Assembly (NCBI GenBank): GCA_027923505.1
Contig: BROI01000005.1
Coordinates: forward strand, 1,175,469-1,239,468
Direction of reading: 5' to 3'
DNA length: 64,000 nt
DNA from: Mayamaea pseudoterrestris
Taxonomy: Eukaryota > Bacillariophyta > Bacillariophyceae > Sellaphorales > Sellaphoraceae
Shown here: in pieces, positions 6,040 to 64,000 of the stretch
Layout: the number at the start of each line of letters is the position of its first letter
Numbering within the stretch: the stretch's first letter is position 1
Position numbers and translations under genes: made by a program
The notes under the pieces: generated by a model
Database searches by the model: none
Seen by the model: the letters and a program-made list of their open reading frames with translations, nothing else
What the model was told of the DNA's origin: nothing

Positions 6040-8494
6040 ATGGAAGGCAGCAAGAACATTACGGGCACCACACCGGAACCTCCGTCGCGAGCCGCACTCC
6101 GCCGAGCTCGCAGGGTGTGCGTTAAGGCTGGTACCTCGGTTGTCGCGAATGAGGATGGCCGTCCTTCCTTGACTCGACTGGGCGCCATGGTGGAGCAGAT
6201 AGCTGAGCTTGTCAATGAGGGAGTGCAAGTGATTCTTGTCAGTTCGGGAGCCGTTGGGATGGGCAAGCTGCTTTTGAGGAAGCAATCAAAAATGATGATG
6301 TCACTCAAGGATTCACTAGCGTCAGGCGGAAGCAACAAGGATGAAGCAATCGGAGCACCACTAGTCAAACGTCACGAGAGCTTTGTCAGCATGCTCAACA
6401 TTGAGCAGCGCCCGCACTCTATGGCGGAACGGAACCGAGTCTACGACAGTGCATGTGCTGCCGCTGGACAGTTTGAAATGATGAACCTTTACAACTCGCT
6501 CTTTGCACAATGTGATGTTGCCGCTAGTCAAGTCTTGGTCACGCAGACGGACTTCACAAACGAAAAAAGATTGAACAATTTAAAGTATGCCATGGAGAGG
6601 TTGCTTAGTCTTGGTATCGTTCCCATTGTCAACGAAAACGATGCCGTCTCGGCTAATTTAGGCTATACGGCTGACGATGTATTTTCGGATAATGATTCCT
6701 TGGCCGCCCTATGTGCGCGATCTTTCGATGCAGAAGTTCTACTGCTATTGACGGACGTCCCAGGTGTATTTGATCGTCCACCCGGTGACCCGCATGCATC
6801 TCTCATTTCATTCTACAGGGCAGAGTATGCGCAAGTGGCGATTGGAGAAAAGTCGCTCCAGGGACGTGGTGGCATGGGATCCAAGATCGACGCTGCTGTT
6901 GCAGCAGTCGCACAAGGAGCAAAGACATCGGCTTGCGTCGTTGGTGCTGGGAGTGACTTGAACTGCATACGGGCAGTCCTTGGACGCGAGACAAGGTTTG
7001 GCGTCAAAGGAACGCTTTTTTGTACCCCAGGAAGCGTTCTCGAGAAGCAGGCCATTCTTGACTTCGAGACTTCGAATAGCTCGGGGCAGACTGCCATTTT
7101 GGATGAGGCGAGAAACATGGCAATTGCTGCGCGCCTAGAAGCACGGAAACTTCAGTTATTGCCGTACTCAGTCCGACAAAATATACTGCGAGCGGTTGCT
7201 CTTGCGTTGATTGAAAGAAAAGAAGAAATTATGGAGGCCAATAAGATTGATTTGGATGCGGCTGAACGAGACGGGATTGCTGACGCTTTGAAGAGTCGCT
7301 TGAAGCTGACTGAAACAAAGTTAACGACGCTCGCGATTGGTTTGAATCAGTTGTCGGACCTACCGGATCCGCTAGGTGTAATCAAGGCAAAGCGTGAACT
7401 TTCGGATGGTTTAGAGCTGACGCAAGTATCGGTTCCTATTGGGGTCTTGATGATTGTATTCGAGTCACGCCCAGACTCAATGCCTCAGGCAAGTATCGAT
7501 CACGACATTCGCTCCATTGCTTCCATTTGATCTGCTATATTCTCATTCATCATCGTTGAGTGCGTTACAGATATCCGCATTGGCTGTTGCCAGCGGCAAT
7601 GGTCTTTTGCTTAAAGGCGGCAAGGAAGCGGCTCATTCAAATGCTTTGATTTACAAAGTTATTGGGGATGCTATTGAAACCGGCAGTGAAAACCAGATAA
7701 AGCGCAACATTATTGGCCTTGTAACCAGTAGAGGGCAGGTGGCCGACATGCTGAGCTTGGATGATGTGATTGATCTTGTCATTCCTCGAGGTAGTAATAG
7801 CCTTGTATCGTACATCAAGGCCAACACCAAAATTCCCGTCTTAGGCCATGCCGACGGCGTTTGCCACGTCTACGTGGACGAGAGTGCGGATGCTGATGCT
7901 GCTTGTAAGATTGCTGTGGACGCCAAGACGGACTACCCCTCCGCCTGCAACGCCATGGAAACATTACTTCTCCATCGCGAAACGATTGACAACAACGTTG
8001 CTTCGACAGTGCTTATGGCATTACGCGCAGCGGGAGTGAGGCTCCTTGGAGGACCCGAGGCGATGAAACGTGGCCTCTGCGATACACCTGCTGTGGAAAT
8101 GAAATACGAGTATGGTGACCTGACTTGTCTGGTGGAAGTCGTCCAGAACATGGACGAAGCAATCGACTGGATTCACAAATATGGAAGTAGTCACACCGAA
8201 GCAATCGTTTGCGGCGAGGAAAGCGAAGCTGGCGAAGCATTCCTTCGTCGAGTGGATTCAGCTTGCGTTTTCAAAAATGCTTCAACCCGCTTTTCGGATG
8301 GCTACCGTTTCGGGCTTGGCGCAGAGGTCGGTATATCCACTGGCCGCATTCATAGCCGAGGTCCGGTTGGAGTGGAAGGCTTACTTTCAACGAAATGGCA
8401 GCTTCGTTCGAGGGGCGGTGTGAACTACGTTGGAGAATTTAGCGGAGACAATCCAAAAGTGTATACTCACAAGGATAAAGTAGTAAATGTGTAA
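6040..8494 (+). CDS. P5CS: Delta-1-pyrroline-5-carboxylate synthase (glutamate kinase-GPR fusion)
   Basis: Bifunctional enzyme that phosphorylates glutamate and reduces gamma-glutamyl phosphate with NADPH, the committed steps of proline synthesis. Exon 1 is 6040-7488, exon 2 is 7571-8494; about 790 aa, normal for the fusion. The N-terminal kinase half shows VKAGTSVVANEDG, ILVSSGAVGMGK and the VNENDAVS and LLTDVPGVF motifs. The C-terminal reductase half shows GVLMIVFESRPDS joined by splicing to ISALAVASGNGLLLKGGKEA, and ACNAMETLLLHRE with the catalytic Cys near residue 609. The 82-bp intron starts CAG|GCAAGT and ends TTACAG, so it is a GC-AG intron. No targeting peptide is obvious; a cytosolic location is likely. 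Confidence 0.95.
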
Positions 8495-39390: not shown

Positions 39391-39586
39391 TATTATGGTG
39401 AACTTCCGGCCGACGAGCATCACACTTCCTTCTTCTTAAGGGCGCTTCAAGCCAAAGCCAACCATCCATTCAATTTGTGTCGTTGCGCCTGATTTTAAAA
39501 AAAGGTGCACTGTGTCTGCCAATCGATTGAATCATCAATCGTTTCGCAAACATCAAACTATCTATTCTTTACTAAATCATCGAGTC

Positions 39587-42532
39587 ATGACTTTCGATCG
39601 CTCTGAATCCGATGACTCCTTTGCGAGCAAGGTCGTCATTATGGTCGATCCTTACTCGACAGGCTGTCTTATCGCGCAGGAGATTGCAAAGCGCGGCTTT
39701 TCCATCATGGCCGTTTGGTCTAAGGGCTTTTCCATGGAGATGCGTCAGCATATTCCTCGCGCGTGCGGTCCGATTCAGTATATCGCAGAAGTGGAGGAAC
39801 AGGAAACGATCGAGGAGACTGCCAAGGCTTGTCATGCGGCTGCTGGTCCGGAGTTCAAGTTGCATGCCTGTTTGGCTGGTGGAGAAGCAGGAGTTGATTG
39901 TGCTGATGCGCTTTCGGAATGTCTTGGCCTTTTGACAAATGGAACCAACGGCGAGTTTAAGAATCGACGTGATAAGAAAATTCAGCAGGAACTTATTTCC
40001 AAGCATGGGCTCCGATCGGTTCGTCAAGCTGGCGGTGACAAATTTGAAGACATTGAGGCTTTTCTTAAGTCGGAGGATTTTCCAGTGGTGCTTAAGCCAA
40101 CGGAATCGGCCGGCAGTGATGGAGTCAAGCTCTGCAACGATTTTCAGGAAGCCAAAGACCATTTCCATCTTCTCATGAAATCGCAAATGGTCAATGGCGG
40201 CCTGTGCGGAAAAGTTCTTGCCCAAGAGTTCTTGCGGGGCAAGGAATATGTCATCGACCACACTTCCTATGATGGCTGCCACAAGACCAACATGTTGTGG
40301 GTGTACGACAAACGATCGGCGAACGGATGTGCCTTCGTGTATTTTGGTATGATTCCAATCGACTCGGAAAGTGCGGAAGCTCAAATTCTTATACCATACG
40401 TATGTGAATAGAAATTGTTAACGTGCGCTTGCAAATGTTTGACTTGGGACCCATTGGTGACACTCACAACTACTTCCGTGTATCAACAGGTGCGAACTGT
40501 GCTGGATGCCCTCGGTATGCGATATGGACCATCACACTGTGAGGTGATGATGACAAATGATGGGCCCTGCTTGGTCGAAATGAACTGTCGCGCCCATGGC
40601 GGGGACGGCAACTGGCGACCGCTTAGTTCATTCATCACTGGATATTCGCAGGTCGAAGCCACTGCGGACTGCTACGTCGACCCAAAGGCTTTTGGCCGTA
40701 TTCCAGACAAGCCGCCCAGTCCATTTCGAGCGTCGGGACAGGAGGTCATGTTTGTGAGCTTCTCCAAGGGCAAAGTCAAGAGTATGCCAGGTTATGATGT
40801 CATCCAGAAGCTACCGTCGTTTGTTTCATACGAAACAGGAGTCAAGCCTGGATCAGAGGTTGACTACACTGTGGATTTATTTACTGGTATTGGAGGAGTC
40901 ATTCTCATGCACTCGGACATGGACATTCTTGAAAAGGACGTTGAGTTTATTAGGTACTTGGAGAAAATCAATGGCTTCTTTGTGTATGAGCACCAAATGG
41001 AGAATCTTAAGCGGCCTACTGGAGAGTCCATTGTACTCAGCGCAGTTGGAGGCGGCAAGGGCGCTGCTGCGCACCGTCGTGTCTTTTCATCGGATGGGCC
41101 AAATCTGATTCGACACATGTCAAACGATCGCCCGGAACTGCGTGGGCCATTGATGAAGCGCATGACCACTGTTGACTCCTCAAAGGAGTGCGTTGTCATA
41201 GTCGATCCCTACTCGACTGGTTGTCTCGTGGCAGAGGAGACGATGAAGCGTGGCTTCAAAGTGATCGCGCTGTGGACTCGCGGGTTCTCGCTCGAAATGA
41301 GGAAACATGTCCCGCTGAGTGTGGGTCAGTTGAACTACGTGGCAGAAGTGGAAGAAGACGAGAATGGCGACTTGCAGGAAACATCTAACCGTGTTTACAA
41401 AGCGGCTGGGATTTTGCGCGTGGTGGCCGTCATGTGTGGTGGTGAAGCTGGAGTCGATTTGACCGATGCATTGTCGGAAAAACTTGCCCTTCGCACCAAT
41501 GGTACACACATACCCAATAAGCGAGACAAGATGGTGCAGCAGGAACTCATCCGTAAACGGGGACTGCGCTCGATTCGTGGAGCAAGTGGTCGCAAGTTTC
41601 TGGAGGTGGAGCCTTTCTTACGCCGTGAGAAGTACCCAGTTGTTTTAAAGCCAACCGAGTCCGCCGGCTCCGACGGTGTGAAGCTGTGCTATAATATTGA
41701 AGAAGCAAAGGAACATTTCGATGCCTTAATGGCGTCTCAGATGGTGAATGGCGGCCAGTGTGGCGCCGTCGTATGCCAGGAATTTTTGCGCGGCAAGGAG
41801 TATGTGGTCGACATGGTGTCACGCGACGGAAAGCACCGTTGTATGATGGTGTGGGTTTACGACAAGCGAGTTGCCAATGGGTCTGCCTTCGTCTATTTTG
41901 GGTGCATCCCTGTGGATTCTGAGAGTCCCGAGGCAAAAATTGTCATTTCCTACACTAAGCGTGTCCTTGATGGACTTGAAGTGAAGAATGGTCCATCGCA
42001 CAATGAGATCATGATGATGAACGATGGCCCTTGCCTTGTAGAAGCCAACGTGCGATGTCATGGGGGTGACGGTTGCTGGCGCTCGCTATGCCGCGAGTTG
42101 TGCGGTGGCTACTCACAAGTCGAGTGCGCAGTTGACTCTTTCCTGGATGCCAAGGCCTTTGCTATCACGCCAGAGAAACCACCGAGCCCCTTTAAAGCTG
42201 CAGGTCAGGAAGTCATTCTGGTTTCATACGAGCGGGGCAAGGTCAAGTCCACGCCTGGGTTCGATGCTATTATGAAGCTTCCTTCTTATGTCTACCTTGA
42301 GACTGGTGTCCAGGCTGGAGTGGATGTCGACTACACTACTGACCTCTTTACAGGCATTGGGAGTGTGATTCTTATGCACAAGGATGCAGATATTGTTAAG
42401 AAAGATATAGAGTTTATCCGCGATTTGGAGACATCCAACAAGATGTTTGAGCTTGAACCTTCGCAAATACTGTTCAAGTCTCCAAGTGCCAATGCATTGA
42501 ACGACATAGATGGAAATACAGGAAGCTTTTAA
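39587..42532 (+). CDS. Tandem-duplicated ATP-grasp ligase-like protein
   Basis: Exon 1 is 39587-40399, exon 2 is 40490-42532; the 90-bp intron (TAC|GTATGT...CAACAG) joins ILIPY to VRTVLDAL; about 951 aa. Two homologous halves each begin with VDPYSTGCL(I/V)A and contain VVLKPTESAGSDGVKLC (ATP-grasp nucleotide site), QEFLRGKEYV(I/V)D and GPCLVE(M/A)N(C/V)R (Mg-binding Glu/Asn). Each half ends in a module that includes DLFTGIG(G/S)VILMH. ATP-grasp enzymes make an acyl-phosphate and ligate it to an amine or thiol. The halves resemble amino-acid ligases of the BacD type in outline, but substrates cannot be read from sequence. Both halves keep the nucleotide and metal motifs. Confidence 0.88.
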
Positions 42533-54912: not shown

Positions 54913-55747
54913 TTAAAGCGTTTGGTGAGTAAATCCAGCGTCTTCCAACCTCTTCGCGCAATCAAAGATGTTCGCGACAATGACCGACACCTCCGCAAGT
55001 GCACCGTTGCCATGCTCCCCGCATGCTAATAGTTTAAGCTGCGGTTCGACGACTTGAAACAAAACGGCAGATACGTCATGTTGAAAAAACGTATGGATTG
55101 TATCCAGTTGTTGCTGTGTCAATTTGTGTTCCCACATGGTCGTGTTCATAGCAGGTGCAAGTATCATTGGCTTTGGTCTAGCAGATTTTCGACCAAACTC
55201 CCAAGCTCTAGCTACGCAAGAGAGCGTATCGTCGCAGAAGCCATGCGCCAGCTTGGCGAGAGTGTTCGCCGATAGGGGAGCAATGACTAGCATGTCGGCC
55301 CAGTTGCGCAAGTCAATATGAAGGACGGAATCACCCAGTGTATTCCATTCGTGCAATTCTTTGTATGCGTCTGTTACGGACGCGTCAATTTAAACCAATC
55401 AGAGTTGTAGTTGTACATGGTCAGTATGCAGGTAAAGATGGCATGCAGCACGCTACCGTTGAGGACTCACCGAGCAGCTCCACTTTTCCTTTGACAATTT
55501 CTTTACGTAATTCTTCCCATGCAGTTGGATTGTAATCTCGAGCCTTGTCCCAAAATCTACTTCCTCCCTTGGTCAGCAAGATTCGCACACGACAAGGACG
55601 TGCGTGTTGAACAAGTCGGACCGCTAACTCTGGAGCTTTGACCGCCGCAACGGACCCACTGACGCCCAGCAATACATGCATGGGACGATTGCAGGTACTC
55701 AAACAACAGTCAGCCGAAGTGCTAGCAGGCTCCATTAGAAGGGACAT
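54913..55747 (-). CDS. PPCDC: Phosphopantothenoylcysteine decarboxylase
   Basis: FMN-dependent decarboxylation of 4'-phosphopantothenoylcysteine in coenzyme A synthesis (COAC/HAL3 family). Exon 1 is 55747-55471, exon 2 is 55370-54913; the 100-bp intron (CTCG|GTGAGT...TAACAG) joins ELL to DAYKELHEW; about 244 aa. Visible are the flavoprotein start PMHVLLGVSGSVAAVKAPEL, the catalytic-His strand LHIDLRNWADMLVIAPLSAN, the motif APAMNTTMWEHK and the substrate clamp LLACGEHGNGALAE with its Cys. Length and motifs match human PPCDC. The downstream gap to the broken ChlH copy begins the decayed region. Confidence 0.93.
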
Positions 55748-57459
55748 ACTCGAGTGGCAGCAGGATCACCGGACATTGTTCCACAAGATTGGGAGGTGAG
55801 GGAAAATAGCATTCGCACCGGTTTTCAACTACCTAGCTATCGGTAACTTGGCTGATCCTAACAGCAGCACTGACCTTTCCTAAGTGCCAACAGTATCACT
55901 ATCAGCTAAAATATTTCCTGATAATTGTTTATGATGACAACGTCGCCCTTTGTGCAAACATTCGATGAACAATGACGTTCTGCGACATCTCCAAACGTGA
56001 GTGAGGCAGTTTCAATCACAAACCATGTACTGAGCAGTACGCAATGCCAAATGCCACTTATTGGACTTTGTAGTGCTTTCCTTACTCAACCCATGCAGCA
56101 ACATCTTCACAGCTTTCTTGATTCTTGCCTAGCTACGAAGTACCCCAAACTGCACTGTAGCATGCCCATAGCAGCCTGGTTGTGTTTGCGCGTGCGAAAG
56201 CCTTTGCATTTCCGATCAGATAAATCTCCCTTTGCCGAGTTCGCCATGCAGCAATAAGTCGTAGCTTTGAATAATTCATCTCATATTGTTCAACGTTCAT
56301 CTCACTACCGTTTAAGCGCTTGGGGATGTTTTGCGCGCGAAAGCAGTGCTCCTCCCACCTCCCCGCTCCGCGAATGTGTTTTTCATTGGAAATATACACT
56401 ATGGCGGTGAGACTACCGGTACATATTGGTGGCGCTGTGGCCGACATGGCGTCACAAAAATTGAACACAGGAGTATTTGCACAAACTTGCGCGGCCTAGC
56501 CTTCAATGATGGGAAGCTCCCGGTCCATGCACTGCATGTACTACCACGACACTAACCAAATCATGTCGCGAGATATCAATATTATTGGTACAGTAAAGTA
56601 GACAATCACCTCGATGGCTTCAAGAATGCGAAATGTGTTGTTCGTCTCATGTGGCCTCTCAGCTCACCTGCTTGTAAAAAGTACATTACCTTCCAACTTT
56701 TAACGCCAACTAGGTGATTAGCGCGACAACACGAATGTCGCCAGAAAGAAGAGCATGGCGAGGTCGAACAAGTGCCGATTACAGCACTTAATTTTTTAGC
56801 GATGGTGCCACCGCCAAAGTGTTTGTTTACTTGACAAGAACACAGGATATGGATGTTGGACAAGGAGGTCTTCGCAAAGTTTTTCTCACCAATCTCAACA
56901 GTTGAAGCAACGCACCTTATTGGAATGCATTCGACGGACACGCAGTAGTCCATATCTTAGGTGAGTAATGGATCGCTGCAGACATTGCACTGGTGTTGTT
57001 CATTTCAGCGGTAACAGGCGCAGGTGCGGCAAGTAGCGGCTCGACAGCTTGTCGGTTACGATGTGTGTCACATGTTAAACAACAGCAGCGTCGCCAAGGT
57101 GTTGGTGCGGCCATGCCCCAACCGACTATGATGCACTTGCGCTGCAGCAGTGCGGACTGGCCGCAACGAGGGTTATCGGATGGTGCACCCTCATGGGACA
57201 GCCAAGTATACTGCTTGAATTTTTGAACCATGGAGAGCAAAGCAATTCAAAAATGTGTTGTGCGGTGTTTGTAATCTTTGGCTGCCCTGCACGCAACATC
57301 GGCTGCGCCACTAGATTTGGAGCAGCACGAAACTTGATAATCTTTGGGCCATGCGACAACCCGGATCTTTTGAACCCAACCGAATGCATCAAAATCGCGT
57401 TAATGTCCGTCTCCAGATAAACCATTGGTACGATATTCCTATGTTGCTCTACCATGGCA
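55748..57459. other. Gene-poor region upstream of PPCDC
   Basis: About 1.7 kb with no convincing intact gene. Near 55818 and 56415 there are ACCGGT motifs. The minus strand around 57130-57450 has a protein-like frame (NIVPMVYLETDINAILMHSV, PKIIKFRAAPNLVAQPM) that ends without a recognisable domain and overlaps the 3' end of the ChlH-like pseudogene. It may be another broken gene. Confidence 0.4.
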
Positions 57460-60400
57460 TTAGCTCGATCCCTGCTCCACAAGATCGTCTGCGTCTGCAT
57501 ACAACAATTGCAGTTTTGTTAATGTTTCAGCATCGGTCGACCACATCCCTCTACCGGCAGCTTCCAAAAATCTGCGGATTACGTTTTTGAATGCCTCAGG
57601 ATTTGATCGCTGCAACGTTTTGGCAACATCGTCGTCCAGGGCATAGCGTTCAGCAGCTTGGTCAAAGACATAATTATCTATTTTTGCGGTGGCAGCCCAA
57701 CCGATCAAAGCTGTCATCCGTTGAGATATTTCGTAGGCGCCCCCAGAGCCTTGACCCAGCATCTTATCCCTCCATTTTGGATTAAGCAGCTTGCTTCTAT
57801 ACTCCAGACGCAGTACATCTTCGACGTCTTGGACTGCCATTGGTGCGTCGTCGCCACCAATACCAAATGCTTCGATCACGGAAATTGCCACCTTTTTCCG
57901 TTTGCCTGTTAATGAATCCACGGATCTTCGGTTCTCGGCTGCTATTTTCAACGCACCAGTATTTGCATAATACTCTTGGATGTCCGATAGCCCGTATTCG
58001 ACGCTGTCAATCTCTTGCACAACCCGTTCAGTCGTCGACAATAGTTTATCCAATACTTCTGGTCGGGCCCGCCCTGCAGCTTCAATGCTTCCTTCACCTC
58101 GACCATATGAGAAGCTATTTCGGCTTTGCCAGATTTCGCCTAGCGCGTCTTTGTCCTCCCAATCCCCGGTCCCAACTACTTCATTAACCATGCTTCCGTA
58201 ATCTCCGGGCCTGTAAGAACAATCAAGCTGAATGAGGAAGTGCTTTTTCATGTGCAGTACATGCTATGCTGCGACTTACGGGTTGCTGAAAAGTCGGGCT
58301 GCGACTCGTTCCGAAACTCCGCCTCAGTAGCTCCATGGCATGTTTTCTGACAAAAGTTGCGATTAAGCGGCTCATCAGCTTGCGCCGCCCGCCCGAACAT
58401 GTCATCCAGTAAATCGACAATGTTTGCAAAAGAGTCCCGAAAGATGCCACTCAGCGATGCAAGAACGTCAATGCGCGGACGTCCCAGCTCCTTAAGTGAA
58501 ATGAGATCGTACCGAACAATTCTTCCGGTCGTCTCTTTAATGGGGTGAGCACCGACTAAGGCAAGCACAATGGCTACTGACTCGCCTTTTGTTTTTATTG
58601 AATCTAATCCCCATAGCGTAACAGCCACCGTTTCGGGATACTGACCGCTGTTCTTTTCTTTGTGTTGTCGTAAAATCTCGTCGGCTGCTCGTTTGCCCGC
58701 GCCCATGCGCCAGGTGATGGGATTCGAAAAGGGTCGAGAGCATGAATATTTCTGCCAGTGGGGAGAACGCCAATGCCGTCACGAAGAAGGTCTCCACCAG
58801 AGCAGCAGGCACAAAGCCTCCATCTAGCGTTAATGACATTGTCGAGTTCCTCGGTGGACCGATCCAACAAGTTAATGACGTCCATTACATCGTCCTCGAT
58901 ACTTGAGACTGTAGACAGTGCAGATAAACCAAGTAGGGAGTCAATCGATGCTATCAAATCGGCCTATTCAAATGTTTTGTGATCGATTACTCGATGCTTC
59001 GCGAAACTTTGTAATGGATGGCGAAGTGAATCTTCCGACAGTCGATCACCGAAATAAGCTGACCCGACGCCAAAAGATCTTCATCCGTTGGACGGCTTCA
59101 AAAATATGTAAGCCGCTTGAGAACAACCTATCTTGCAAGAGATTCAGGTGGTCGCTTAATCTAGACACCCAGTCATTCTTGTCGGCTAAACTTAGGATGC
59201 TCAATGCACTGTCATCTACACAACCGTCGTTGAACAAAGGAACATCCTTGATCATGCCGCTGCGAAGCGATAGGTCATATATCGTCTGCAAAAGATACAT
59301 ATCGCTTTCTCCGGTGAAGCTCTATATTCGTCAATCACGTCTTTCAGACTTGCCAGCTCCAGGTAAAGGCCGCTGCGGCCGTATGGCGGAACGTTGTAAG
59401 ACACGATTGTAGCGTAGCCACGTCGCTTCGCCAAAATACTTTCACTTGGATTATTGGCAGCGTATATATAAATGTTAGGAGTTCACCAAGAAGCTCGTCG
59501 CTCCATGACTTCCGATCATTCCCAAGCGGTTGGCCTGGAAGCCATTCCACGGTTCCATGCATACCTAGATGAAGAACTGCATTTGCTCCGAACCCACCGC
59601 GCGATTCCGGTAATTTCATCCACTCATAAGTGGCGCAATATTGTGGATGGGGCGTCAAATCCCTTTCAAACAAGAGCCTCATAGGATCCCCTTCCACACC
59701 CAGCATCGGTTGCACAAAAATCCATACATTGCCAACCTGCAAACCAGCAACAACAAAGTCTCCATTAGCCGAGACGCCGGGTCCGCGTTGTTTTTCATTC
59801 CAAGCACGGCGAACCTTTTTGTACATGTACTTTCCCACCATCTTCTCCAGCTCATCAGATGATATATTCTTCGCGACCACGCGAGCACCGCCGAGACCCC
59901 GCCATTTCGACCGAGTGATTCTGCCACAGTCCTGTCGCCGCCAGAAGCTCGCTCAATCTTGTTCTCTAGTGCAGCTGGCATGCGGTCTGCACCCCCAACG
60001 ACAACGCGGTCCTCGCACAGTACTGCCAGTGCGGCGACAAGACTTTCGCCAGACGCATCAGGGTAAGCCGCCCAGTCACCAAGATTGTAACTTTCCTTGT
60101 GCAAACGAGCTAGCAGCATTTCGAGTGATCTGGGGACGTCCAGCAAGGCAGCAGTACCGACGGCACCAACGTTTGGTGGAAAGCCATATACTGATATAGC
60201 TATTTTTCGATCACTGGTGGCGTTCTTCGCAGCCGCACCCATCCATCAATGCGCTGAATCAGTTTACGCACTCGCTCTGGCACCAGCGCAATCTTGTCAC
60301 CAACAAGACCACCGAGTACAACGGTGTCCACCGCCCCATCTAGCTCGGGCAATGAATAGAGAACGACTGATTGTAACCCCTGAACACCATTTCTTTTCCA

Positions 60401-61849
60401 TTGCTGAATCGACTGCAAAAGCAAGGGGCTCGCTACCATTACGGAACATTCATGGATGTCAGCAGTTCCTTTGTAATGTCCACGTTGCGTCCTGCTCCAT
60501 ACTACCAGCAGGGCCACCCACCAACGGAAACCCAATTGTATTCACAATTGCTTCAACGGGCAACGGCGTTGTTGTGTTGGTACGTATCAGCACGATGAAA
60601 CTTCCCTCGTTTCACCATTTCGTCTCATACTCGCTCGTCAGCAAGTCCCGCACAATTGTATGCGCCTCGACTCCATTGATGAAAAGCGATAGGAATAATA
60701 CCTTGCTCCTCCACAATGGTCAATAAATCCTGCAGATAGCGTTGCTCCGTAATGACATGCTTTCGATACAGCAACATTGGCAACCCGAGGAGCACCTGCT
60801 GGTGCCAAACGAAAGTTATGCTTTATTGCTAAATGTTTCGTCCGGTCGGACAAACCTAAGAAGTAATCGCGAGGAGACTCGAAATAGGGTGAGACGCCAT
60901 CGCTGCTTCGATAAAATAGCGGGATGAATAAGGCCAATGTCTGGTGTAACTTGAAGCTGAGGTAGTTGTGTCATTCTGAATGAGCCGAGCGACAAAGTGT
61001 GTTGATAATTTGAAGCATGGACTGACGTTGCTTGCACCGCCTTGATTCCAGTAACGATATGCTTCTAGCCAGGTGCGCAAATCGCTTGCTTTGTCACCAG
61101 GCACAAACTTCAACAGGTCCGGCCCAACCTTAAAGCTTCAAGTATCCACTCAACTTGTCTTCCTCTTTTGCCAGAACCAAATGTAGACAGAATTGTCTTG
61201 ATTGCTGGAGGAGGACCAGGCGCAGATCCATCGTCTACTTTCGCCATGTTAAAAGTGCCGACGCTGTTGAATTCCATCAGTTCGGTAGCACTTTCTCAAA
61301 GATGAGTCGCGGACCAAATTTTCGGCAATAAGCCTTTAGATGTGTTATCGTAATCAAAGATCAGTGAACCGATAAAAGCATCTGCGTCCAGTAGAGCTTG
61401 CCGAAACGAAGGGATGAAGACTTAAATCGTTTGATCCAAACTTGGCAAATTGTTGGCTACCGAATATCCGAATCTGCAAACACATGGAGCTCAATGTCAA
61501 TATCATCTGCCGCCTTTTATATAGTTCTCGGTTAAATGACTCGAAAGCCAGCCACTAACACGATTTTCGGGCGCTCAGATGCGGGCAGTCCTCCGTGTCC
61601 GATCGTCGAGGGCGATTGGTTTGGGGAAGCGAAGTTTGACGAAGCTGCATTTCGACAAACTTTGTGCACTACAAAAGCCAAGAGACTCCGCAAGGAACTG
61701 GTAGGAAAGAAGGAAGGCGAAGCGGGCGGATCGATGAGACTGACGAGACGAGTTTGTCCAATGAGAACACAACGTAGTTTTTGTGAATGAACAAACGGGA
61801 CTGGATGATCAGTTCCTGTTCGTGTCGTGTTTTTGGCACGCAGCGCCAT
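57460..61849 (-). pseudogene. chlH: Magnesium chelatase H subunit, BchH-type, multiply frameshifted
   Basis: ChlH/BchH carries protoporphyrin IX while Mg2+ is inserted, the first step specific to chlorophyll. Almost the whole protein can be followed in order on the minus strand, but in changing frames. Blocks are KIVLVAGF (~61550), ADAFIGSLIFDYDN (~61350), KFVPGDKASDLRTWLEAYRY (~61090), SLPELDGAVDTVVLGGLVGD (~60350), KIAISVYGFPPNVGAVGTA (~60190), LHLGMHGTVEWLPGQPLGN (~59540), AKRRGYATIVSYNVPPYGR (~59400), GVLPTGRNIHALDPFRIPSP (~58740), GQYPETVAVTLWGLDSIKTK (~58610) and an intact C-terminal exon (58210-57460). A 69-bp intron (58279-58211) keeps its splice sites. At least ten frame changes break the rest. 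GMHGTVEWLPG and NVPPYGR are BchH-like rather than plant GUN5-like. Confidence 0.88.
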
Positions 61850-62058
61850 GATCCGATCAGAACGGTGACAATCATTTTGATGTCGATGCGTTTTCGGCCG
61901 CCATCATTTTCGCTGCGTTATTGCATTCGAGTCAAGTAACGAACAACCAGCAACCAGATTTTTTCCCCTTGACTCGATGCGCTCATGAACAAGATATTAA
62001 TATTTGGATAAGCCCGCCAAATCAATTGTTCAGTGCAGTCGTCAACGAGCCAATCAAT

Positions 62059-63003
62059 GGCGACGGCTACGCTCCTCGGCAAAGCGAAGTCCGATCCAGA
62101 ACGTCAAGATCACAACAAACGCAACCTCCAACAATATAATTCAGAAATTAAGGGACTTCCGATTGGCCAGCCATATTCGCATTACGGCAGACACCAAGGG
62201 GGCAATAAGGTGTGATCAGACATGGGCAGAAGTGTCACCGGATTTGCGACGATCACTCCAAATGGTTTTGCACCCTGTTACGAGACTTTGGAGATTGATT
62301 CCGAGATCAAGGACAGAACCGTTTGTCAATCCGAGAAAGGGAAACTTAATGATCCAAACGACTTACATCCATACCTGCGCTCTCGTTGCTGCAAGCTTGT
62401 TTCAAAAGATTAACGACAAACTTGACGACGGTGCCCCAGAGCCTGCTGCAACGCAAGTATCGCTTTGAGCATTGCGATATGATTGCTCAGAAAAAGAGCA
62501 GATACCAGAGTTTCTATAGATAAATCCGGATCACGGTAGACCATCCCGCCGATGAGCTTCGCGGCATGGATGAAGCATTTGATTTTGCCGACTGGGCGTA
62601 CGACGAGTTTGAAGATGACAAAATGGCAAAAGAGTTGGCCAATCACAAGTTCTACTTGTGGTAAGACTATAATTGTATTTCCTTTGCATTAATCTACTCA
62701 AATCACTTAAATCTCACTTAGGTTTGTCGACAGAGACACGACAAGTTCAAGCTTCCTGGATGGCTCACCGTAAGGTAAAGAGCGTAAGACGGTTTATCAG
62801 TATCAGGGTCGTGGTTTTTTGAAGGATTGTGACCGATTGTGCGGCCACTCGATCAATATTGGTGGACCATTCATTAGGGACGGTCCCACGCAACTTTATG
62901 GCCATGAAGGCATTCTCGCGGCAGCAAATGGTTGGCTATCAGTCGAGATACTCATCGAGGAACTTTTTACCAAATCGATACAAAATTTTCATCATGTCAC
63001 ATA
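62059..63003 (+). pseudogene. Broken plus-strand coding remnant, unknown family
   Basis: Successive protein-like blocks on the plus strand: MATATLLGKAKSDPERQDHN (from ATG 62059), SHIRITADTKGAIRCDQTWA (~62170), QRKYRFEHCDMIAQKKSRYQ (~62450), DELRGMDEAFDFADWAYDEF (~62560), HDKFKLPGWLTVR (~62735) and KDCDRLCGHSINIGGPFIRD (~62820). They sit in different frames and one stop (TAA near 62520) splits a continuous frame. A possible intron (TGTG|GTAAGA...CTTAG, about 62661-62721) is present. The pattern fits a decayed gene, or a real gene with unrecognised introns. I cannot name the family. Confidence 0.35.
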
Positions 63004-63828
63004 GTTGGGTGAGGCGTCGTGCTTTGTGGTGTCATGCGAGCCAGATTCCGATTCCTCGAAACAGGGAAACAGGTGGTCATTATGATGTAGCGAAAGAGAA
63101 AGCTGTCACTTATTGCTATCTACATCGTGGTCGCCGCTATTTTCGCAAAATCCGACAGGTTGTAGCTTTCGCGTCGCCGCCGGTCCTATCACGAGAGCTT
63201 TGGCCTGCAGCCTTTTCACGACATTGTCAACAAAGGACGCCGTCGCACGTGCGTCGCCAATATGATATGCAGAATTTCGGAGTGGGCGAGAAACCGCAGC
63301 AAAAAGGCGTGAGTCCTGAAATTTTGTAACGGGCTTTCGTCCGATGCGTCGAAAGGGCGGTTGGTCAACTTTTAATGACGCAAAAAAAAACGGATGCGCC
63401 AACCACTGAGCAGGTTGAGGTCAAGGACCCATTATTGTGCTGGCAGAGTGTTTCAATGTAAGGGAAAGGAGGCGCCATCAACAACGGTGGGACGAAGAGT
63501 GAAACACGAGGACGGACAGTAAAAGACCGTGGATAACTGATGGTACATCATTAATGCTTCAGTATATCGAAATGGAGAGTAACGTAAGTAGCGATCATTG
63601 AAAAGTCGTGTGATCGTGAAACGGTTCCTGCTTCTTTGGGAGCGTTACGGCCTATTTTTTATGCTACCAGCGACCACATATCATCTAGTACCGCAGTTCG
63701 ATCAGAAGTTTGCTGCAGAATTAGCGAAACCGTTTTAGATTTGTCTGTACTTCAATATTCACTGTAACGACACTGCTCCTAACGCGACGATGTTTCTTTG
63801 TAGTGCGCTGAGGTTTATCTTCACAATC

Positions 63829-64000
63829 TTAAAGTGCCGTTTCGCTTGTCGTCGATGCGGCTTTAGCTTCCATCTCATCCCAATCGAGGCTTGTTCAATC
63901 GTCAATTCTTTCGTCAAACTCAGGTTTTGCAGAACCTTCGTTCTTCCTTATCTTCATCAAACTCAGAGTCGGTACTCGCTTCCTCGTCCTCATCATCGCC
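63829..64000 (-). pseudogene. Spt16-like acidic C-terminal tail, frameshifted, partial
   Basis: From base 64000 the minus strand reads GDDEDEEASTDSEFDEDKEE, then after a one-base shift EGSAKPEFDERIDD, a TGA, then SLDWDEMEAKAAS and a final TAA at 63831-63829. A long acidic run followed by DWDE(L/M)E.KA is the ending typical of the FACT histone chaperone subunit Spt16, but acidic tails are common, so the family is tentative. The frameshift and stop suggest a non-functional copy. The rest lies beyond the window. Confidence 0.35.

Follow-up and report, generated by a model that had tools for sequence, protein, structure and literature searches.

The question raised by this locus is whether a conserved gene is broken in the organism or only in its sequence as given. 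The gene, CHLH2, is a nearly complete magnesium chelatase H gene at 57463-61567 on the minus strand of the window, which is the whole 64,000-nucleotide stretch of Mayamaea pseudoterrestris DNA that was analyzed. Both the gene and its breaks are genuinely present in the sequence as given. CHLH2 is the porphyrin-binding H subunit in its second isoform, which would bind protoporphyrin IX and take magnesium together with ChlI and ChlD, as is usual in the family. Should the breaks prove to be errors, what looks like an algal loss of a chlorophyll-pathway isoform would come down to a false pseudogene, and this species would be misrepresented in comparisons of ChlH-2 gene content. Real breaks would mark a fresh natural loss of ChlH-2, which could reveal what this isoform is for.

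Structure of the CHLH2 locus

The locus was delimited by profile matches and by a frame-aware alignment, in which the minus strand of 57300-62100 was compared with a profile of 74 cyanobacterial ChlH-2 proteins (1228 columns). The aligner, which was our own, allows frame changes, stops and GT-AG introns. Columns 3-1224 of 1228 are aligned in order from 61567 to 57475, with 1205 columns matched and 54% identity to the consensus.

Ten minus-strand ORF pieces of the locus were compared with protein families. PF02514 is found in six of them (2.6e-11 to 9.3e-56), DUF3479 is matched below its cut-off in two, and two are without any Pfam family. TIGR02025 is matched by seven of the ten pieces and not by the other three. 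Because the gene is in pieces, none of them reaches the TIGR02025 cut-off, the best score of any single piece being 256.3 bits against a whole-protein cut-off of 829 bits. From 57463 to 61295, the matches of the pieces to magnesium chelatase H follow the correct order, and these ordered profile matches over the whole length place the gene in the family defined by TIGR02025 and PF02514.

The last exon (57463-58210, minus strand) is open to the C-terminus, with no frame change called and with alignment to column 1224 of 1228; the ORF at 57463-58263, which contains the PF02514 match of 9.3e-56, is uninterrupted. This exon is preceded by a spliceosomal-type intron of 69 nt (58211-58279, minus strand; GTAAGT...TTACAG), which lies between the AARLFSN and PGDYGSMVNE blocks. 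Since the intron is retained, CHLH2 is not a retrocopy. An earlier reading of the letters by a model, here termed the first-pass annotation, had described a nearly full-length magnesium chelatase H gene with an intact intron and an open 3′ end, and had excluded a retrocopy on the same ground; all of this holds.

The remaining coding sequence (58280-61567, minus strand) contains its conserved blocks in order with 16-23 frame changes, and is recognized by homology, by codon usage up to 60803 and by the gaps at its junctions. An in-frame stop at 60612-60614 (minus strand) is present under all alignment settings. A second, at 58964-58966 (minus strand), lies in a weakly conserved stretch and appears under the third setting, while other settings read a possible intron there, within about 59.1-58.9 kb. 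On the 5′ side of the first conserved block, 61568-61903 (minus strand) is open as part of the ORF 61532-61903, and this open stretch could encode a putative plastid presequence.

The window is eukaryotic by its genes, with POLR3C-type, ER lumen retaining receptor and RPA families among the ten ORFs scanned, and with intron-sized gaps in several genes. CHLH2, with its 1205 aligned columns and one short intron, is probably a real nuclear gene of a photosynthetic eukaryote.

Assignment to the ChlH-2 class

Judged by sequence relationships, the gene is a member of the ChlH-2 class, a known second isoform of which the window holds a frame-broken copy. The split between ChlH-1 and ChlH-2 is described in PMC6078071 and PMC10156173, and the former records ChlH-2 from restricted lineages only. 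The window sequence joins nine cyanobacterial ChlH-2 proteins at 100/100 in a tree of 34 rows, although its branch is long (0.99), the intron is read through in its row, and the tool cautions that long branches may be joined falsely. The other branch (99/96) comprises four purple-bacterial BchH and ten ChlH-1 proteins, with ten CobN-type rows (one annotated, nine labelled as such by us) standing separately. Two ChlH-2 rows that are cut short in their loci (L108 and L109) were left out of this tree.

Sequence identity agrees with the tree. The window gene is 54% identical to a cyanobacterial ChlH-2 over 1179 columns; between the ChlH-2 consensus and ten cyanobacterial ChlH-1 rows, identity is 33-35% over 740-790 positions. 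The C-terminal exon is 52-58% identical to cyanobacterial loci (80 loci kept of 331). In all ten of the genomes searched, representing 10 of these 80 loci, another copy of the family outscores the found locus against TIGR02025, and for this reason the found cyanobacterial loci are read as the second isoform.

The first-pass annotation had called the gene BchH-like rather than cyanobacterial, with GMHGTVEWLPG and NVPPYGR as markers. The tree contradicts this, with no grouping of the window gene with BchH, and both motifs are present in the cyanobacterial ChlH-2 consensus. The BchH of purple bacteria is of the same family as the window gene, but its four rows side with ChlH-1, and the C-terminal exon is 28-33% identical to the six records that carry a magnesium chelatase H annotation among 30 listed of 84 plasmids. 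The ubiquitous isoform, ChlH-1 (CHLH1), likewise shares TIGR02025 and PF02514 with the window gene but occupies a separate clade. The likeness to ChlH-2, which occurs in cyanobacteria, green algae and other restricted lineages, consists of the full domain order and the 100/100 clade. The window copy differs from it by its 16-23 frame changes and its intron, and it branches outside the nine cyanobacterial rows, the comparison having been made with cyanobacterial ChlH-2 alone. No relatives of the gene were found in the viral contigs searched. In Phaeodactylum, two CHLH genes are recorded in PMC2766053, and a CHLH_2 transcript that peaks in darkness is recorded in PMC3592843; this CHLH_2 is a possible member of the ChlH-2 class.

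Number and nature of the frame changes

Under three penalty settings, 22, 16 and 23 frame changes are called in CHLH2, of which 16 are common to all three, and outside the real intron there are 1, 2 and 2 in-frame stops, respectively. The settings disagree on one change near 59.85-59.92 kb, which was assigned manually in the set of 23. As given, the sequence has no continuous frame after splicing. In comparison, none of 11 intact ChlH, BchH and CobN-like genes of 31-74% identity receives a frame change, although one of these (L099) is itself represented in the profile. Since the same kind of alignment calls zero changes in 11 of 11 intact genes, those in CHLH2 are not due to chance. The aligner did place one spurious intron in six of the 11 controls, and the introns that it proposes are therefore treated with caution.

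The first-pass annotation had counted at least ten frame changes, a number that is exceeded, and the sites it had named were recovered at 58355 beside a TTTT run, at 58828 and 58799 around LDGGFVPAA, and at 59480 before PNIYIYAANNPSE.

The breaks are of nearly zero length. In 18 of 18 tested pairs of conserved blocks around frame changes, the blocks are separated by only 1-7 nt, which rules out introns as the source of the changes at these junctions. One further pair is 72 nt apart and contains the GTAAGT...TTACAG intron. The segment 60023-59932 is taken as an intron under some settings, but it contains no stop when read through, and a single small frame change accounts for it equally well.

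A codon-usage model that uses no homologue also detects a frame-hopping coding signal on the minus strand over 57471-60803, with a score of 76.0 compared to a maximum of 5.5 in 30 shuffles. The model, for which the window's other ORFs served as training data, is weak: it calls the N-terminal part of the gene, above 60803, non-coding, and it also fails on the neighboring flavoprotein gene (3.9 compared to a shuffle maximum of 6.4).

Decay compared to sequence error

Under neutral decay, indels should be accompanied by stops and by the loss of residues. The number of stops to be expected was estimated by placing 22 indels into the intact ChlH-2 gene L099, with six runs per ratio of indels to substitutions. 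The simulated genes acquire 0-2 stops without substitutions, 1-3 at 1:2, 6-12 at 1:8 and 14-25 at 1:30, L099 being in the profile and closer to it (74%) than the window gene. Stops are rare in CHLH2, and their count of 1-2 fits a ratio of about 1:2 or higher. If 4.7% of substitutions are assumed to be nonsense, the Poisson probability of at most two stops is 0.008 at 1:8 and 5e-12 at 1:30.

Conserved residues were compared between the broken part of the gene and the open part. Of the columns invariant in both cyanobacterial ChlH-1 and ChlH-2, the broken part retains 205 of 231 and the open part 46 of 52 (Fisher p 1.0). For columns that are invariant in ChlH-2 and not in ChlH-1, the figures are 183 of 281 and 59 of 74 (p 0.017), and for all ChlH-2 invariants they are 390 of 513 and 105 of 126 (p 0.095). 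The poorer retention of ChlH-2-only columns may reflect mild relaxation or an N-terminal region that evolves faster. The agreement of ChlH-1 and BchH with these columns is lowest toward the N-terminus, yet higher in two middle regions. Taken together, stops and residue loss do not keep step with the indels, with the ChlH-2-only columns (p 0.017) pointing the opposite way.

The frame changes are also unevenly arranged. The gain and loss classes are clustered, with 7 runs among the 23 changes (p 0.015) and 3 among the 16 robust ones (p 0.002), and the 837 nt at the 3′ end, intron included, are without a frame change (p 0.005 and 0.026); these clustering tests were made after the pattern was seen. 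Elsewhere in the window, 11 ORFs of at least 500 codons in 1-55.8 kb (22.9 kb in total), picked because they are long, are uninterrupted, where about 160 breaks would be expected at the density seen in ChlH. At four other points in the window where ORF pieces of one gene are separated, the gaps measure 88-163 nt, which leaves room for introns; RFC3-like and BUB3-like junctions were excluded from this control count, as the downstream motif was found elsewhere.

Alternative explanations of the breaks

From their pattern, the frame changes are probably local sequencing or assembly indel errors. Small insertions and deletions would have arisen in a poorly determined stretch of the assembly, at about 58.3-61.6 kb, rather than as mutations of the organism, and the gene would be intact in the organism and work as CHLH2. 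PMC12007338 reports that long-read errors can introduce frameshifts and stops and so pseudogenize genes. Local indel error fits better than neutral decay because of the stop count, the dual-invariant columns, the clustering of gains and losses and the spared 3′ end. Slow decay under ordinary neutral mutation, the picture given by the first-pass annotation, would fit the many disruptions of a gene that belongs to a class restricted to certain lineages (PMC6078071). It is nevertheless highly improbable, as six to twelve or more stops would be expected compared to the one or two observed, and as the dual-invariant columns are no less well kept in the broken part than in the open one. The description of a gene "caught in decay", with loss of a second ChlH, is therefore doubtful, and a story of decay and loss does not follow from these data.

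Several points weigh against the error reading. Among them, the position of a bad stretch within a single gene is itself unusual, although the stretch may run on beyond 61.6 kb, where no coding signal was found, and the ChlH-2-only columns are less well kept in the broken part (p 0.017). The latter would suit a genuine CHLH2 pseudogene, broken recently by small indels that far outnumbered substitutions, in a lineage that then relies on CHLH1 alone. Such a young pseudogene is possible, though less likely; it would explain why frame changes are present in the given sequence while long ORFs elsewhere in the window are uninterrupted. Many natural indels, however, are longer than the 1-7 nt found at all 18 tested junctions, and both the clustering of gains and losses and the spared 3′ end speak against this origin. 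The restriction of ChlH-2 to certain lineages (PMC6078071) is in its favor, but the stops need a ratio of about 1:2 or higher, compared to about 1:30 in a diatom, where a study of Phaeodactylum mutation-accumulation lines gives 1.58e-11 for indels and 4.77e-10 for substitutions (PMC6604790).

It is also conceivable, if extremely unlikely, that the gene is functional as written and that its frame is restored about twenty times by ribosomal frameshifting or by nucleotide insertion/deletion RNA editing. The persistence of dual-invariant residues through the breaks and the coding-like codon usage over 57471-60803 would agree with corrected expression. However, changes in both directions would be required, the other window genes examined need no correction, and no shared signal is visible by eye at the breaks beyond short single-base runs beside some of them. 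To our knowledge, there is no precedent for such repeated frame correction in such algae. The clean long ORFs and the intron-sized gaps elsewhere, along with the results of the decay tests, together suggest a stretch of poorly determined sequence over a conserved gene.

Neighborhood of CHLH2 and other features of the window

The flanks of the gene (55.4-57.5 kb and 61.6-64 kb, six frames each) contain no Pfam family above its curated cut-off. The nearest case is the first piece of the neighboring Flavoprotein family gene, which reaches 21.6 bits compared to a cut-off of 22.7. This gene, used as a control, lies at 54916-55765 (minus strand) in two ORF pieces with an intron-sized gap between them, and we take it to be PPCDC-like. 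On the other side, 61900-64000 adjoins the broken gene; neither strand there holds a recognizable gene or, under the weak codon model, a significant codon signal. A single PDB match (E 0.28) comes from the three plus frames of 61.9-64 kb. The segment 33881-35390 is likewise without codon signal. No tRNA or Rfam match was found in the window.

Several other genes have features of their own. At 7489-7576, there is an 88-nt gap in a gene, presumably P5CS-like, with a match to the amino acid kinase family in its first piece; the gap starts with GCAAGT, and the intron may be of the GC-AG type. At 39440-42529, two successive ATP-grasp modules are seen by eye from the translations in what is apparently one gene, with Pfam ATP-grasp hits for the second ORF piece only, and a 99-nt gap around 40391-40489 fits an intron. 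Finally, a tandem array of 8 copies of a 42-nt unit with 83% matches, at 942-1277, runs into the 5′ part of the open frame 1059-2795, which continues into a DEAD-box helicase gene.
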